In this document: piece by piece, positions 47-32,321 of the stretch
Layout of the letters: the number at the start of each line of letters is the position of its first letter
How positions within the stretch are numbered: the first letter of the stretch is position 1
Source of the DNA: a virus
Strand: one strand, 5' to 3'
DNA: 32,321 nucleotides
Virus record (IMG/VR): IMGVR_UViG_3300042446_000293
Location: 1 to 32,321 of that record
Program-made: the position numbers and the translations under genes
Notes under the pieces: generated by a model
Told to the model about the DNA's origin: nothing
Seen by the model: only the letters and a program-made list of their open reading frames with translations
The model's database searches: none

Positions 47-126
47 ACTATTTTTATTTAAAAACATTAATTTCTATATTTTGTTATTTTTTATCCTAAA
101 CTTGCATTTTTAATTATATTTCTATC
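1..126. repeat. Terminal overlap block X (copy 1)
   Basis: These 126 bases are identical to 31321-31446; the first difference is base 127 (t) against 31447 (c). The block contains the protease start and the last codons of the tape-measure gene. With the second pair of identical blocks (917-1043 and 32195-32321) it indicates that the contig closes on itself. Confidence 0.95.
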
Positions 127-2118
127 TAATGATTGTTGGCTTGTAACTTGGTTTGCAACTACAAACGCTTGAACAGGTTGTTGGCTTCCTAATGTTTGTG
201 CTAATTGATTAACGCCTGTGTTACCTACTACGTTAAATTGTGGTGCAGGAGGAGGAGAACCACCGCCTCCTATAGATGGTGCAGAACCACCACCTGCAGA
301 AGCAGAACCACCAGCAGAACCACCACTTGATAATAATTGTTTTGCTCTTTTTACGTTTGATAATACAGATAAACCAGTAGAAGCGTAAGATATAATTCTT
401 GCAACTGTACCAATTCCAGGCACGAAAGGAAGTGCTAATTGTGCAGCTACACCCTCTGCATTTGCTAAAGTAGAAGCTTTAGAAATTGCTACAGCACTAT
501 CAATACCAATTTGAGTTAAAGCTATTGCTTTTGCTACTCCTTGACCTGCTTTTGTTTTTGCTAAACCTGTTTCTTCTAAACCAGAAATTATATTATTAAA
601 GTTTGCTTTTGAAGTTGCTATTACATCATCTTTTGCTTTTTGAAATGCTATATCTTCAGCTGCTGCTGTTTCTCTTTTTTTCTTTGCTTCATCATCTCTT
701 GCTATAGATTTTGCGGATTGGTTCATCCAATAATCTAATTCTTTTTGGTCATCTTCTGCTTTGAATTTATCAGCAAGTTCTTTTTCTTTTGTACGTTGTG
801 CTTCTTTTAAAGACAAAACCTTTGCAGAATTTTTACCATAATATTTTTCAGCTTCTGCAATTAAATCAGCATATTGTTTTTGAACTTGAAATAATTCCTC
901 TGCTCTACGTTCTGCCTCTGTATCAATTTCACCTTGTCTAATACGTTCTAAAGCATTTACTTTATCTTGTTCTAACTTAATTTCATTAGCATTATTTTCT
1001 TTTTGTTTTTCAACTCTTGTTTGTGCAGCTTGTTGTTCTATTGAATTTACAGATAATTGTAAACCCGCTCTATCGTTTTTAAGTTTTGCAAGTGCTTTTT
1101 TCTGTTCTTCTACAACTTTATCGCCCTCTTCTTGTGTTTTTTTAGGGTCAAAAATAAAAGAAGATAATCCTTTAAATACTTTTTCTTCTAATCCAAAATC
1201 TTTACCTAAAGCACTACCAACAGCATCAACTGTTTTTAAAATCATTGTTAGCGGTAAACTTATAAATTTTAAAACACCTGCTAAAATATCTTGGTTTCTT
1301 TTAGCTGCTTCAGTTTGTGCTTTTGTTGTAGCAATAGATTGCTCTATTTGTATTTCAGATGCTTTTATTACTTGGTCTGTTTGTGCTATTTTAATTTTTA
1401 AAATATCTTTTTCAGATTTACCTTGTAATTTTAAAATATTATCTTGCCCACCTATTGTATCTAATTTTTTTTGCTGAATATCTAAATTACTTTGTGATTG
1501 TTTATTTAGTGTTTCTTGCTCATTACTTACACCATTAACTGCTTCTTTAATATCGTCCCAATAAACTGCAATAGCACCAATAGCAACTAATAAAATACCA
1601 ATACCTGTTGCAGCAATTCCTGTTTTAATTCCAGCTAATGCGTTTTTAGCAACAGCTCCCATTTGTTTGAAACTATCTATACTTTCGCCTAACCCTTGTA
1701 AACCTTGAGAAAGTGCCATAGCAGCTTGTAACCTAACCATTGTTTCTTGTAGGTTTTCACTTTGTACACCAGCTAATGCTAAACTACCCTCAACAGCACT
1801 AAAACCACTTGCTACACCACTTAAAGAACCAGATAACGCACTAAATTTAGCATCAGGGTTAAACGCATCTGTTAAAGCTTTTGCATCACCAATAGCGTCT
1901 TTTAATTGTCCTGCTCTTTTAGCCGCTTCAACTGCTTCTTTTGAAGTTGCACCAAACTTTTCAGAAAGTTCTCCAACATCTGCTTGAGCTTGTCTTAATT
2001 GGCTTCTTAATGATTGCGTGGCTTTATCAGTTTGCTCAATAGAATTAGTTATATTGTTTATTCCGGTTTTAGCACCTTGACTGTTTAAATCAATTTCTAT
2101 CGTTTTTGTAATTGCCAT
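91..2118 (-). CDS. Tail tape measure protein, allele A
   Basis: The protein (675 aa) sets tail length and lies inside the tail tube. Residues 1-80 are a polar helical, coiled-coil-like region; a hydrophobic membrane-like segment lies at about residues 163-186, followed directly by a YWDDI motif; residues 210-500 are long charged helices (many K, E, Q, A); about 510-590 is a second hydrophobic helical region; and the C-terminus is a Gly/Ser/Pro-rich linker followed by a conserved tail ending in NASLG. This architecture and the position after the tail chaperone and distal-tail genes support the call. It overlaps the preceding 47-aa ORF by 22 bp. The C-terminal third exists in a second version at the other end of the window (31411-32321), which is 14 codons shorter. 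Confidence 0.88.
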   Translation of the reverse strand: MAITKTIEIDLNSQGAKTGINNITNSIEQTDKATQSLRSQLRQAQADVGELSEKFGATSKEAVEAAKRAGQLKDAIGDAKALTDAFNPDAKFSALSGSLSGVASGFSAVEGSLALAGVQSENLQETMVRLQAAMALSQGLQGLGESIDSFKQMGAVAKNALAGIKTGIAATGIGILLVAIGAIAVYWDDIKEAVNGVSNEQETLNKQSQSNLDIQQKKLDTIGGQDNILKLQGKSEKDILKIKIAQTDQVIKASEIQIEQSIATTKAQTEAAKRNQDILAGVLKFISLPLTMILKTVDAVGSALGKDFGLEEKVFKGLSSFIFDPKKTQEEGDKVVEEQKKALAKLKNDRAGLQLSVNSIEQQAAQTRVEKQKENNANEIKLEQDKVNALERIRQGEIDTEAERRAEELFQVQKQYADLIAEAEKYYGKNSAKVLSLKEAQRTKEKELADKFKAEDDQKELDYWMNQSAKSIARDDEAKKKRETAAAEDIAFQKAKDDVIATSKANFNNIISGLEETGLAKTKAGQGVAKAIALTQIGIDSAVAISKASTLANAEGVAAQLALPFVPGIGTVARIISYASTGLSVLSNVKRAKQLLSSGGSAGGSASAGGGSAPSIGGGGSPPPAPQFNVVGNTGVNQLAQTLGSQQPVQAFVVANQVTSQQSLDRNIIKNASLG
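917..1043. repeat. Terminal overlap block Y (copy 1)
   Basis: These 127 bases inside the tape-measure gene are identical to the last 127 bases of the window (32195-32321). The base just before differs (916 c, 32194 t). Together with block X they flank the two allelic versions of the tape-measure 3' region. Confidence 0.95.
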
Positions 2119-14345: not shown

Positions 14346-14847
14346 AATATGTTACATCTTTTAATAATTCGTTTGCAGTTTTTACAAAACTTTTTTCTAC
14401 TAATTCAAAATCCCAATTCTTTTTTAATTGTTCTATAATTTCTTTTTGATTGTTTGAAATTATATTTTTATCATTTTCTATTTGCGTTTCATTTAACAAA
14501 TGTGGGTTTGTAGTATTTACTCCGATTGAATTAAAATAGTTTGTTAGTTCTGTATTTGTTAAATTTTTTTGTAAATATATTAAGTTGTAATTTAATGACA
14601 AAGATAAATCGTATTTAATTTTATTTATTGCTTGTTCAATACTTCCATAATACATTAAATTTTGATTTATCTGTATTGCTAATAATTTAGCGTATAATAA
14701 ATTTTTATTAACATATTCTTTGTTTTTATTTTCTAACGCTGTATTCAATAATTTTAGTGCTTCTATATCTTCGCTATACACATTGTTTTTATTTCGTTTA
14801 AACACGTTGTAAATACGTTTAAATGCGTTTTGTTCAGTCCAACTCAT
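14338..14847 (-). CDS. Hypothetical replication-module protein (169 aa)
   Basis: A helical, Asn-rich, soluble protein starting MSWTEQNAFKRIYNVFKRNK. It overlaps both neighbours (ATGA with the DUF6291 gene, 8 bp with the ATPase), so it is translated with the replication genes. Analogues at this place in Bacteroidetes phages are conserved but unnamed. A helicase-loader role is possible but not shown. Confidence 0.6.
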   Translation of the reverse strand: MSWTEQNAFKRIYNVFKRNKNNVYSEDIEALKLLNTALENKNKEYVNKNLLYAKLLAIQINQNLMYYGSIEQAINKIKYDLSLSLNYNLIYLQKNLTNTELTNYFNSIGVNTTNPHLLNETQIENDKNIISNNQKEIIEQLKKNWDFELVEKSFVKTANELLKDVTYYE

Positions 14848-15470
14848 AACCTATCTAATTTAATTTGTGGTTTAGGTGAAAAAGTCTTATCATTTTTAGC
14901 CCAAGTTTCTAATCTTCTGCTTATACTCCAAGTTTGTTGCAATTCAAATTTTAATTTAGTATTGCTTTTATTTGGTTCAGTCCAATATCCAAAAAAGTCT
15001 TTTAGCATATCTATAGAATATTTTTGTTTAAAAGGAATTAATGAATTTTTAAATGCGAGTGTGCGAATTTCTAAATTCGCCTTACTATCTTTATTTATTA
15101 CATTTACATTAACACTATCATTTACACTAACACTTACAGTTGAATTTGTTGAAGTTTGTTGAACAAAATCAACATTTGTTGAATTTGTTAAATTTTGTTG
15201 ATTAAGTTTTGCTAATCTTTTTGCTTCTGCAGATGCTTTACCTGCAACTGACCTACCCTCTTTTGTTTGCTCCCATTTTTTTAAATCACGTTTTAATTGT
15301 AATTTAATCATTTCAAAAACTATAGCAATAGAATTATCAATAACAGGATTTTCATCGTTTACATAAGCAAATAATGTTTTTAAAAGTAGTCCAGCTTGTT
15401 CATTAGTCATTAAATCTATAATAGATTTACTATCAGAATATAATACAAAAGAAGTTTTATCTTTAGCCAT
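14844..15470 (-). CDS. DUF6291-type replication initiator/organiser protein
   Basis: The 208-aa protein has, right after its ATG, the DUF6291 pattern SFVLYSDSKSIIDLMTNEQA and a repeated LKTLFAYVNDE stretch. A low-complexity Ser/Thr/Asn/Val linker (about 90-130) is followed by a C-terminal part with FFGYWTEPN and ISRRLETWAKNDKTF, typical for phage replication proteins. I choose the ATG at 15470 because the domain starts there; an ATG at 15524 would add 18 residues inside the preceding gene. It acts with the downstream ATPase. Confidence 0.72.
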   Translation of the reverse strand: MAKDKTSFVLYSDSKSIIDLMTNEQAGLLLKTLFAYVNDENPVIDNSIAIVFEMIKLQLKRDLKKWEQTKEGRSVAGKASAEAKRLAKLNQQNLTNSTNVDFVQQTSTNSTVSVSVNDSVNVNVINKDSKANLEIRTLAFKNSLIPFKQKYSIDMLKDFFGYWTEPNKSNTKLKFELQQTWSISRRLETWAKNDKTFSPKPQIKLDRL

Positions 15471-15705
15471 TAGATACCTCACTTTCTGTAATTTTATTAA
15501 TTTCTGTGCGAAGTGTTTTAGCAAATTTAATTGCAGTTGATTTATCTAAATCAAAACAAGTTTCTGTTTTATCTTGTAAATTTGTAATCCATAATCTAAT
15601 TGAATGTGTATTATAAGAAGTATTATCTCTATGATTAAAAAAAACTTGTAATGTTTTTTCTTCTTCTAAAATTTGGTCTAAAAATTTTAATTCAAATTTT
15701 GCCAT
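15463..15705 (-). CDS. Hypothetical protein heading the replication operon (80 aa)
   Basis: A small soluble protein (begins MAKFELKFLDQILEEEKTLQ) with a helical C-terminus (AIKFAKTLRTEINK). It is the first full-length gene after the structured leader at 15750-15837 and overlaps the DUF6291 gene by 8 bp, so its translation may set that of the operon. No family recognised. Confidence 0.62.
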   Translation of the reverse strand: MAKFELKFLDQILEEEKTLQVFFNHRDNTSYNTHSIRLWITNLQDKTETCFDLDKSTAIKFAKTLRTEINKITESEVSNG

Positions 15706-15737
15706 AATAATAAAGGTTTTAAGATACCTATAAACTA

Positions 15738-15842
15738 TTAAATTAATAAAAAAATCCCATTCATTTGGTAGTGTTGTGGAACGTACCTCCTGAATAGGAT
15801 TTTATATAATATTTTAATTTTACGTAATGCGTTCCACTTCAT
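15738..15842 (-). CDS. Candidate leader peptide (34 aa)
   Basis: The ATG at 15842 lies only 8 bases after the -7 box at 15857-15850, so the message would be nearly leaderless. The frame encodes a basic peptide (MKWNALRKIKILYKILFRRY..., 34 aa) that runs across both hairpins of the structured region and stops at 15738, just past its T-run. This is the geometry of a translation-coupled attenuator, but the frame could be chance. Confidence 0.3.
   Translation of the reverse strand: MKWNALRKIKILYKILFRRYVPQHYQMNGIFLLI
15750..15837 (-). ncRNA. Structured 5' leader, possible attenuator/pseudoknot
   Basis: On the minus strand AAAATCCTATTCA (15803-15791) pairs with TGAATGGGATTTT (15763-15751) through 13 bp with one U.G pair, and runs into a T-tract as an intrinsic terminator would. 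A second arm, GTGGAACG (15837-15830), is the exact complement of CGTTCCAC (15783-15776) located in the loop of the first hairpin. Both cannot form as simple nested helices; they form a pseudoknot or exclude one another. It lies between the promoter at 15850 and the replication operon. Confidence 0.55.
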
Positions 15843-15849
15843 TACTTTG

Positions 15850-15880
15850 CAAATATAAACAATAAAATTAAACCTGCAAA
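15850..15880 (-). promoter_or_regulatory. Promoter for the replication operon
   Basis: On the minus strand TTTG (15880-15877), 19 bases, then TATATTTG (15857-15850) is an exact fit to the Bacteroidetes TTTG/TAnnTTTG promoter. It partly overlaps the terminator of the upstream gene. Confidence 0.7.
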
Positions 15881-31366: not shown

Positions 31367-31446
31367 ACTATTTTTATTTAAAAACATTAATTTCTATATT
31401 TTGTTATTTTTTATCCTAAACTTGCATTTTTAATTATATTTCTATC
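31321..31446. repeat. Terminal overlap block X (copy 2)
   Basis: Identical to 1-126 over all 126 bases; it holds the protease start, the intergenic gap and the last codons of the tape measure. Past 31446 the sequences diverge. Confidence 0.95.
31373..31386 (-). promoter_or_regulatory. Late-gene leader motif (protease)
   Basis: The TGTTTTTAAATAAA motif lies 6 bases before the ATG at 31366. It identifies this ATG rather than the one at 31387 as the start. Confidence 0.6.
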
Positions 31447-32321
31447 CATACTTTGTTGGCTTGTAACTTGGTTTGCAACTACAAACGCTTGTACAGGTTG
31501 TTGGCTTCCTAAAGTTTGTGCTAATTGATTAACACCTGTGTTACCTACTACGTTAAATTGAGGAGCAGCAGGAATAGATGGAGCAGCACCACCACCGCCT
31601 CCGCCACCACCGCTACTACCAGAAGCAGAAGCAGATTTCATTTTAGCAATTTGTATAGCACTAAAAACCCCAGCTAATCCCGCTTGTACATAAGGATATG
31701 CTGGAAATAATGCAGTAATAGGAGATTTTTGTGCAGTTGTATAAGCATTTTGTACACCTTGAATACCACTAACAACAGTTTGTGCTATTGCTGCTGCTTT
31801 ACCTATTTTAGAACCTCTACCTGCAACTTCTTGAATTAAATTTAAACCTTGATTTGCAAATTCTGCTTTAGCGTTAAATAATTGATTTTCTTTTTCAATT
31901 TCTTCATCTTTTAATTTTTTTACATCTTCTGTGCTTTTCTTTGCGGCATCATCTCTTGCAATAGATTTTTCAGACTCTTTAATCCAATAATTATTTTCCT
32001 CTTGTTCTTTAGTTAATTTTTTTTCTGCATCTTCTTTATCAAATTTATCTTGTAATTCTTTTTCTTTTGTACGTTGTGCTTCTTTTAAAGATAAAACTTT
32101 TTCAGAATTTTTACCATAATATTTTTCAGCTTCTGCAATTAAATCAGCATATTGTTTTTGAACTTGAAATAATTCCTCTGCTCTACGTTCTGCTTCTGTA
32201 TCAATTTCACCTTGTCTAATACGTTCTAAAGCATTTACTTTATCTTGTTCTAACTTAATTTCATTAGCATTATTTTCTTTTTGTTTTTCAACTCTTGTTT
32301 GTGCAGCTTGTTGTTCTATTG
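31411..32321 (-). CDS. Tail tape measure protein, allele B (3' part, cut by window end)
   Basis: The frame is open from the window edge to the stop at 31411 (302 codons plus stop). Its N-terminal part here (from 32321 down to about 32115) is almost identical to allele A, then it diverges: the hydrophobic region is different (AAIAQTVVSGIQGVQNAYTT..., then a FPAYPYVQAGLAGVFSAIQI stretch), and the Gly linker is shorter, before the shared end NIIKNASLG. The version is 42 bp (14 codons) shorter. It is the alternative tape-measure C-terminus in the same genomic place as allele A. Confidence 0.85.
   Translation of the reverse strand, partial: IEQQAAQTRVEKQKENNANEIKLEQDKVNALERIRQGEIDTEAERRAEELFQVQKQYADLIAEAEKYYGKNSEKVLSLKEAQRTKEKELQDKFDKEDAEKKLTKEQEENNYWIKESEKSIARDDAAKKSTEDVKKLKDEEIEKENQLFNAKAEFANQGLNLIQEVAGRGSKIGKAAAIAQTVVSGIQGVQNAYTTAQKSPITALFPAYPYVQAGLAGVFSAIQIAKMKSASASGSSGGGGGGGGAAPSIPAAPQFNVVGNTGVNQLAQTLGSQQPVQAFVVANQVTSQQSMDRNIIKNASLG
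32195..32321. repeat. Terminal overlap block Y (copy 2)
   Basis: The last 127 bases of the window equal 917-1043. The block ends the contig at a point of full identity with allele A. Confidence 0.95.

Follow-up and report, generated by a model that had tools for sequence, protein, structure and literature searches.

A covarying 5'-leader RNA with kissing hairpins, a candidate conditional attenuator of early genes in phages of Bacteroidota

The window analysed here is a whole stretch of 32,321 nucleotides, an IMG/VR virus record (IMGVR_UViG_3300042446_000293), in which an operon of replication genes on the minus strand is preceded by a structured leader. Positions 15845-15748 of that strand encode, in turn, a hairpin at the 5' end (H1), a linker rich in A and a long hairpin resembling a terminator (H2). 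In order of transcription, the features of the locus are these.

15850..15880, minus strand: sigma-A promoter of Bacteroidota type, with TTTG at 15880-15877, a 19-nt spacer and the -7 box TATATTTG at 15857-15850
15845..15845, minus strand: predicted start of transcription (+1), both where H1 begins and the fifth base after TTTG, placed from the F. johnsoniae -7 spacing
15824..15845, minus strand: hairpin H1, GTAATG (15845-15840) paired with CATTAC (15829-15824), loop AA followed by GTGGAACG
15830..15837, minus strand: kiss strand 1, GTGGAACG, in the H1 loop, pairing with 15783-15776
15804..15823, minus strand: A-rich linker with a conserved AAAATATTATA-type motif, from counts of AA(N)ATTA
15751..15803, minus strand: hairpin H2, outer stem 15803-15791/15763-15751 (13 bp), inner stem GGTA (15787-15784)/TACC (15770-15767)
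15776..15783, minus strand: kiss strand 2, CGTTCCAC, in the H2 loop, the exact 8-mer complement of GTGGAACG, with a 5-nt spacer AACAC after it
15748..15754, minus strand: U-run of seven T after H2, terminator-like in its U frequency and its anchoring to H2
15714..15736, minus strand: SL3, AGTTTATAGGTATCTTAAAACCT, a covarying mini-hairpin of 4 bp before the start codon, 84% paired
15463..15705, minus strand: first gene of the operon, an 80-aa protein with conserved ends and a variable middle
14844..15524, minus strand: second gene, a DUF6291/primosomal-type, replisome-organiser-like protein (Pfam DUF6291, 1.7e-19; PHROG 6451 primosomal, 1e-5)

A first-pass annotation of this DNA had correctly located the promoter, the complementary 8-mers and the hairpin of 13 bp that ends in a T run. 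What had been overlooked is that GTGGAACG sits inside the loop of a hairpin of its own, GTAATG-AA-GTGGAACG-CATTAC, and that H2 contains a 3x3 purine internal loop, GGA/AAA, beyond which the inner GGTA/TACC helix closes the loop carrying CGTTCCAC. The segment folds 4.3 sd better than its dinucleotide shuffles. The two-hairpin fold reaches -23.1 kcal/mol, compared with -15.9 kcal/mol when the 8-mers are forced into a nested helix, a cost of ~7 kcal/mol. A perfect AGGAGGT is present in H2 (15791-15785), though Flavobacterium mRNAs lack Shine-Dalgarno sites; since homologues substitute GGAAAGC and other sequences for it, it is structural and not a ribosome site.

The promoter consensus used, TTTG/TAnnTTTG, comes from the available text of PMC6847099, and a box like that of the window precedes most homologues. 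The same text places the F. johnsoniae -7 element at -12 to -5. Since, in addition, the gap between box and H1 peaks at 4-6 nt over all elements, H1 would begin at +1 or within a few bases of it. Just upstream, a hairpin terminating an SSB-type gene (ACCTGCA..TGCAGGT, 15894-15872) extends into the -33 element of the leader's promoter; the terminator of one operon and the promoter of the next thus have bases in common.

The 80-aa protein has no Pfam match, and no relatives were found in a set of 84,980 prokaryote genomes. Among its viral homologues (L001-L080) the ends are near-invariant, MAKFELKF... and LDKSTAIKFAKTLRTEINKITESE, while the middle is hypervariable and differs in length between phages, as if the core had been diversified or swapped. 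The AlphaFold model comprises strands and a C-terminal helix; with moderate confidence (pLDDT 78) and no significant match in the PDB (best E 0.05), the protein was not retained as a candidate RNA-binding regulator. An RNA motif linked to DUF2693 was likewise dropped, given the missing Pfam match and a literature that offered nothing useful. SL3, accompanied by conserved AGUUUA and CUUAAAA immediately 5' of the start codon, was found solely ahead of this gene family. Its variants are AGG/CCT, CGG/CCG, CCG/CGG and CAG/CTG, seen as AGGT..ACCT, CGGT..ACCG, CCGT..ACGG and CTGT..ACAG in homologues such as L003, L010 and L069 2956-3003, and it is possibly a translational or autoregulatory site. At the two ends of the window (91-2118 and 31411-32319) the same tape-measure-like C-terminus, GNTGVNQLAQTLGSQQPVQAFVVANQVTSQQS.DRNIIKNASLG, follows differing upstream sequence, reflecting either a duplicated gene end or an assembly that joins two strain variants.

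A search of IMG/VR with the 80-aa protein retrieved 80 loci, whose 230 upstream bases were inspected by reading, and the same leader was found upstream of the gene in most of them. It is also present, at 85% identity, in the Muminvirus phages of Flavobacterium. Searching IMG/VR with the exact pattern GTGGAACG...CGTTCCAC, in contrast, gave mainly unrelated matches because the kiss sequence varies. Comparison of leaders also disposes of a 34-aa leader peptide proposed earlier: many homologues have ATGAAGTGA at this place and stop at codon 3 (ATG AAG TGA), and no conserved short ORF of the kind found in leader-peptide attenuators is seen.

Covariation was assessed in an alignment of 42 diverse homologues, with 500 shuffles and slid structures as controls. 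For the structure described above, 96.7% of cells are paired; shuffled controls reach 81.8% and slid ones ~40%. Of its 29 pairs, 23 have changed on both sides, and all five covariation measures exceed every one of the 500 shuffles. Compensatory changes, a check the first-pass annotation had proposed, were thus found in all three helices. The kiss helix consists of standard pairs in 99.7% of cases, with compensatory change in 6/8 pairs and one-sided changes nearly absent. H1 is 96.8% paired and has two-sided changes in 5/6 pairs; for H2 the figures are 10/12 pairs in the outer stem and 2/3 in the inner one. Exceptions in the stems comprise 81 G.U and 4 A.C, where column shuffles lead one to expect 117:40. 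That G.U is tolerated and A.C is not points to RNA of the minus strand as the active form.

Selection of the sequences does not account for the kiss. Of 69 leaders located through SL3, a separate motif ahead of the start codon, 64 exceed the 99th percentile of shuffles for the kiss, with 46 different kiss sequences among leaders chosen in this way. On reading, three of the five leaders below the cut-off have a discernible kiss (L061, L076 and L221), in another the element is shifted upstream (L037) and the last (L230) is a coding match and not a homologue. The kiss is therefore no artefact of how the set was chosen. Furthermore, a scan for the architecture in 29 related contigs (0.94 Mb) gave 52 matches scoring at least 31, compared with 6 in three shuffled copies (2 expected). 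Given the gap between the fold and its shuffles, this excess and the kiss in independently chosen leaders, a chance origin of the structured leader is excluded.

One set of sequences shows covariation in H1, H2 and the kiss helix alike, and the nested 8-mer helix is costlier; the three are therefore supported together, and the alignments identify the interaction as a predicted kissing complex compatible with both stems. The hairpins had been taken for mutually exclusive; this is contradicted by the joint covariation and by the lower stability of the nested alternative. The loop pairing itself stands as an exact, covarying 8-mer, but not its supposed competition with the terminator hairpin, because it fits both stems. 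Nor was an alternative antiterminator fold found, such as classical switching by mutually exclusive pairing employs.

Two loop designs recur. One has a short 5' spacer, mostly AA, then the kiss and nothing after it; the other has the kiss followed by a spacer of 4-6 nt. The first is found in H1 and the second in H2 in 33 elements, the designs are exchanged between the hairpins in ~20, and no element has a long spacer in both loops, although some of these class assignments hinge on the automatic choice of stem. There is also a compact class with kisses of 6-7 bp and little spacer in either loop. Since the designs can be swapped between H1 and H2, it is the geometry that is kept, as would be expected of a kissing complex and not of mutually exclusive hairpins. 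The linker motif AA(N)ATTA is common to many elements of differing kiss type: it occurs in 24/35 linkers accompanying a window-like kiss (shuffled mean 7.4, maximum 14) and in 23/68 others (shuffled mean 10.2, maximum 19). Linker length is not correlated with helix length (rho 0.09), so the linker does not serve as a strict ruler. In most long linkers (28-36 nt) a further small hairpin separates H1 from H2, for example TTAGTC..GACTAA or GGTTAA..TTAACC (L009, L015, L060, L061, L038 and FCL-2, L289 near ~37500), suggestive of a possible third arm. A second internal motif recurs in H2, GUUAGUAGG..CCGAAAGC, ahead of unrelated genes (L296 4715, L298 317, L294 and L207 8845), and may be a defined tertiary module.

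A phage contig carries between one and four elements, and their kisses differ; the order of the cassette is sigma-A promoter, H1 at +1, linker, H2, U-run and ATG. Among the genes that follow are the 80-aa/replication operon, endonucleases of the NUMOD4-HNH and GIY-YIG types, DEAD helicases, an ERF recombinase, YopX, KilA-N, a DNA methylase and a Phg_2220_C replication protein. The idea of a control before the replication operon is thus upheld in that a covarying structured leader lies there, and is too narrow in that the element also precedes many other early genes. Among cultured phages it occurs in five genera (Muminvirus, Cellulophaga phi10:1 and phi19:1, FCL-2 and Polaribacter P12002L), ahead of the replication region; the sole match in B124-14 is doubtful and lies on the non-coding strand. 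A pattern scan of the 84,980 prokaryote genomes, one species each, revealed no convincing chromosomal copy, and a CM search of five genomes found no match among the 150 candidates scored per genome, the latter being weak evidence. The element seems to belong to virulent phages, since the Muminvirus phages are described as virulent in the available text of PMC7077304.

As in attenuators, a GC-containing hairpin with a U-run stands ahead of the gene. In elements with short spacers, U accounts for 89-100% at positions 2-5 after H2, compared with 32% T in the remaining leaders of these contigs. The run is anchored to H2 and not to the ATG, being sharper when sequences are aligned on H2, elements of unrelated genes included. 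The d'Aubenton-Carafa score, which was trained on E. coli, is above zero (d > 0) in about half of the elements and is -13 in the window. By comparison, the terminators at ordinary gene ends in these phages are tight, short hairpins followed by uninterrupted U-runs, reaching d of about 40-49 in the best cases. H2 has the architecture of a terminator and, on its low scores, looks a weak or conditional one. Its distance from the ATG ranges from 7 to >50 nt and, in most elements of genes outside the 80-aa family, is 7-21 nt; in many elements, therefore, effects on translation are inseparable from those on termination.

The window and 17 diverse homologous loci match no family in Rfam 15 at gathering score, the best sub-threshold scores falling far below the cut-offs, and the element is not described in the accessible text of the open literature on structured RNAs, Flavobacterium and Bacteroides transcriptomes, HK022 put, P4 CI RNA and T4 hairpins. 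The description of the leader as new accordingly agrees with Rfam. We class it with the control RNAs of 5' leaders, an unusual one in that its hairpins kiss within one molecule. Like attenuators and the expression platforms of riboswitches, it combines a 5' leader, a terminator-like hairpin and U-run directly before the gene, and conserved RNA structure upstream; unlike them, it has no exclusive antiterminator, leader peptide or known ligand aptamer, and its upstream hairpin kisses the terminator hairpin. Nor is there a riboswitch-like core of strictly conserved unpaired bases: loops, internal loop and stems vary freely across elements, the weak linker motif being the only sequence kept. In the copy-number RNAs of plasmids (ColE1 RNAI/RNAII, pT181), hairpin loops of 7-8 nt kiss and control replication genes, the contact being an intermolecular one between sense and antisense; the leader has the loop kiss and the replication genes in common with these, its own kiss being intramolecular. 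The dimer initiation loop of HIV-1, with two 5' purines and then the kissing bases, makes an intermolecular contact through a palindromic 6-mer. The loop design is alike, whereas the leader uses a non-palindromic 8-mer within one RNA.

Phages offer partial parallels. According to the available text of PMC9378689, the put RNAs of HK022 are two stem-loops just 3' of early promoters and are repeated within the genome, and the leader too has two stem-loops near an early promoter. It differs from put, as described there, in that its hairpins kiss, its sequence is free to vary and its second hairpin, with a U-run, ends near the start codon. The CI RNA/seqA-seqC control of P4 resembles it in linking RNA-RNA pairing to termination ahead of phage replication genes; there, in the accessible account (PMC4825925), a processed RNA acts in trans, while the leader has both partners in one short RNA. 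T4-type hairpins, as presented in the available text of PMC2988022, similarly put an RNA structure near the start codons of homing endonuclease genes in phages. Those hide a ribosome binding site, whereas Flavobacterium lacks Shine-Dalgarno sites and the elements have a promoter of their own.

Our preferred reading, to which we assign a probability of about one half, is that the leader would be a 5'-terminal kissing-hairpin RNA acting in cis as a conditional transcription attenuator of phage early genes. RNA polymerase would start at the sigma-A promoter, and H1, being the first RNA to leave the enzyme, would fold at once; after another ~35 nt the loop of H2 would appear and dock on that of H1 through 6-9 Watson-Crick pairs. 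H2 would then close before the U-run, leaving from a few to a few dozen bases to the start codon. That termination occurs here is an inference, which extends to the step under control, to its trigger and to which way the kiss acts; on this view the kiss would set how often polymerase pauses or stops at H2, leaving a leader of ~100 nt, or reads through into the gene. Anything that altered kiss formation, such as a phage or host protein or an altered polymerase, could turn the gene up or down.

H1, the kiss and H2 might, alternatively, act after transcription, as a compact cap against 5'-end-dependent decay and/or a gate on translation, with the U-run mainly an unstructured landing zone for ribosomes. 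We consider this unlikely, if a serious competitor. In its favour, H1 at the inferred +1 would leave the 5' end unexposed, H2 scores as a weak terminator and is commonly close to the ATG outside the 80-aa family, Flavobacterium translation is tuned by structure near the start (available text of PMC6847099), and T4-type phages gate homing-endonuclease genes, which are common here, by hairpins near the start codon (accessible text of PMC2988022). A U-run that is fixed to H2 and far richer in U than other leaders of the contigs is not what this predicts, however, and the variable distance from H2 to the ATG is unlike a translational switch. The position next to promoters, two stem-loops in ~100 nt, the presence of the element at more than one early promoter per phage and the lack of any apparent dedicated protein would suit a complex of H1 and H2 that binds transcribing polymerase and makes it resist downstream pauses and terminators, as in HK022. 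This we judge improbable: put is two stem-loops binding the beta' zinc-binding domain, a U-run being absent from its description in the available text of PMC9378689, and long-range antitermination would be of little use ahead of the single homing genes that some elements precede.

The loops, being mutually complementary, could also pair between molecules, and the terminated leader might then be a small RNA pairing with leaders as they are transcribed from other copies of the genome or from superinfecting relatives, in copy-number or immunity control. Kiss sequences do vary between elements of one genome and between phages, and the satellite phage P4 is a precedent for RNA-driven termination before replication genes (accessible text of PMC4825925). 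Yet the main kiss types recur in many phages rather than diversifying, intramolecular pairing should win kinetically, and the cultured relatives sampled, Muminvirus, are virulent in the account available in PMC7077304; we think such a role very improbable. Scarcely credible is a feature of the DNA, namely operator palindromes at +1, or of chance inverted repeats without functional RNA. H1 is indeed a palindrome at the start site, a common location for operators, but loop-loop complementarity over a distance covaries almost perfectly and the stems accept G.U and not A.C; for the kiss, these facts and its presence in independently chosen leaders refute the reading.

Overall, the design has been kept by compensating mutations across many phages of Flavobacterium-type bacteria and ahead of many different early genes, which makes the leader very likely a hitherto undescribed switch of phage genes, whether of on/off or dimmer type. 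Somewhat short of an even chance, in our estimation, is the wider proposal of a new class of phage gene switch, a portable promoter-leader cassette whose 5'-end hairpin would kiss the loop of a terminator-like hairpin near the promoter and so set read-through, with a separate kiss code for each promoter, at many early genes in phages of Bacteroidota. The covariation of the intramolecular kiss is exceptionally clean, and the loop-swap variants and many kiss sequences constitute natural compensatory mutants for relating a tertiary contact to termination or translation. With the element in cultured phages (Muminvirus, Cellulophaga phi10:1 and phi19:1, FCL-2 and P12002L), the proposal is testable now. 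If true, early genes, and replication genes above all, would be under the control of a large and undescribed family of structured RNAs in phages of an abundant aquatic bacterial group where phage gene regulation is little known.
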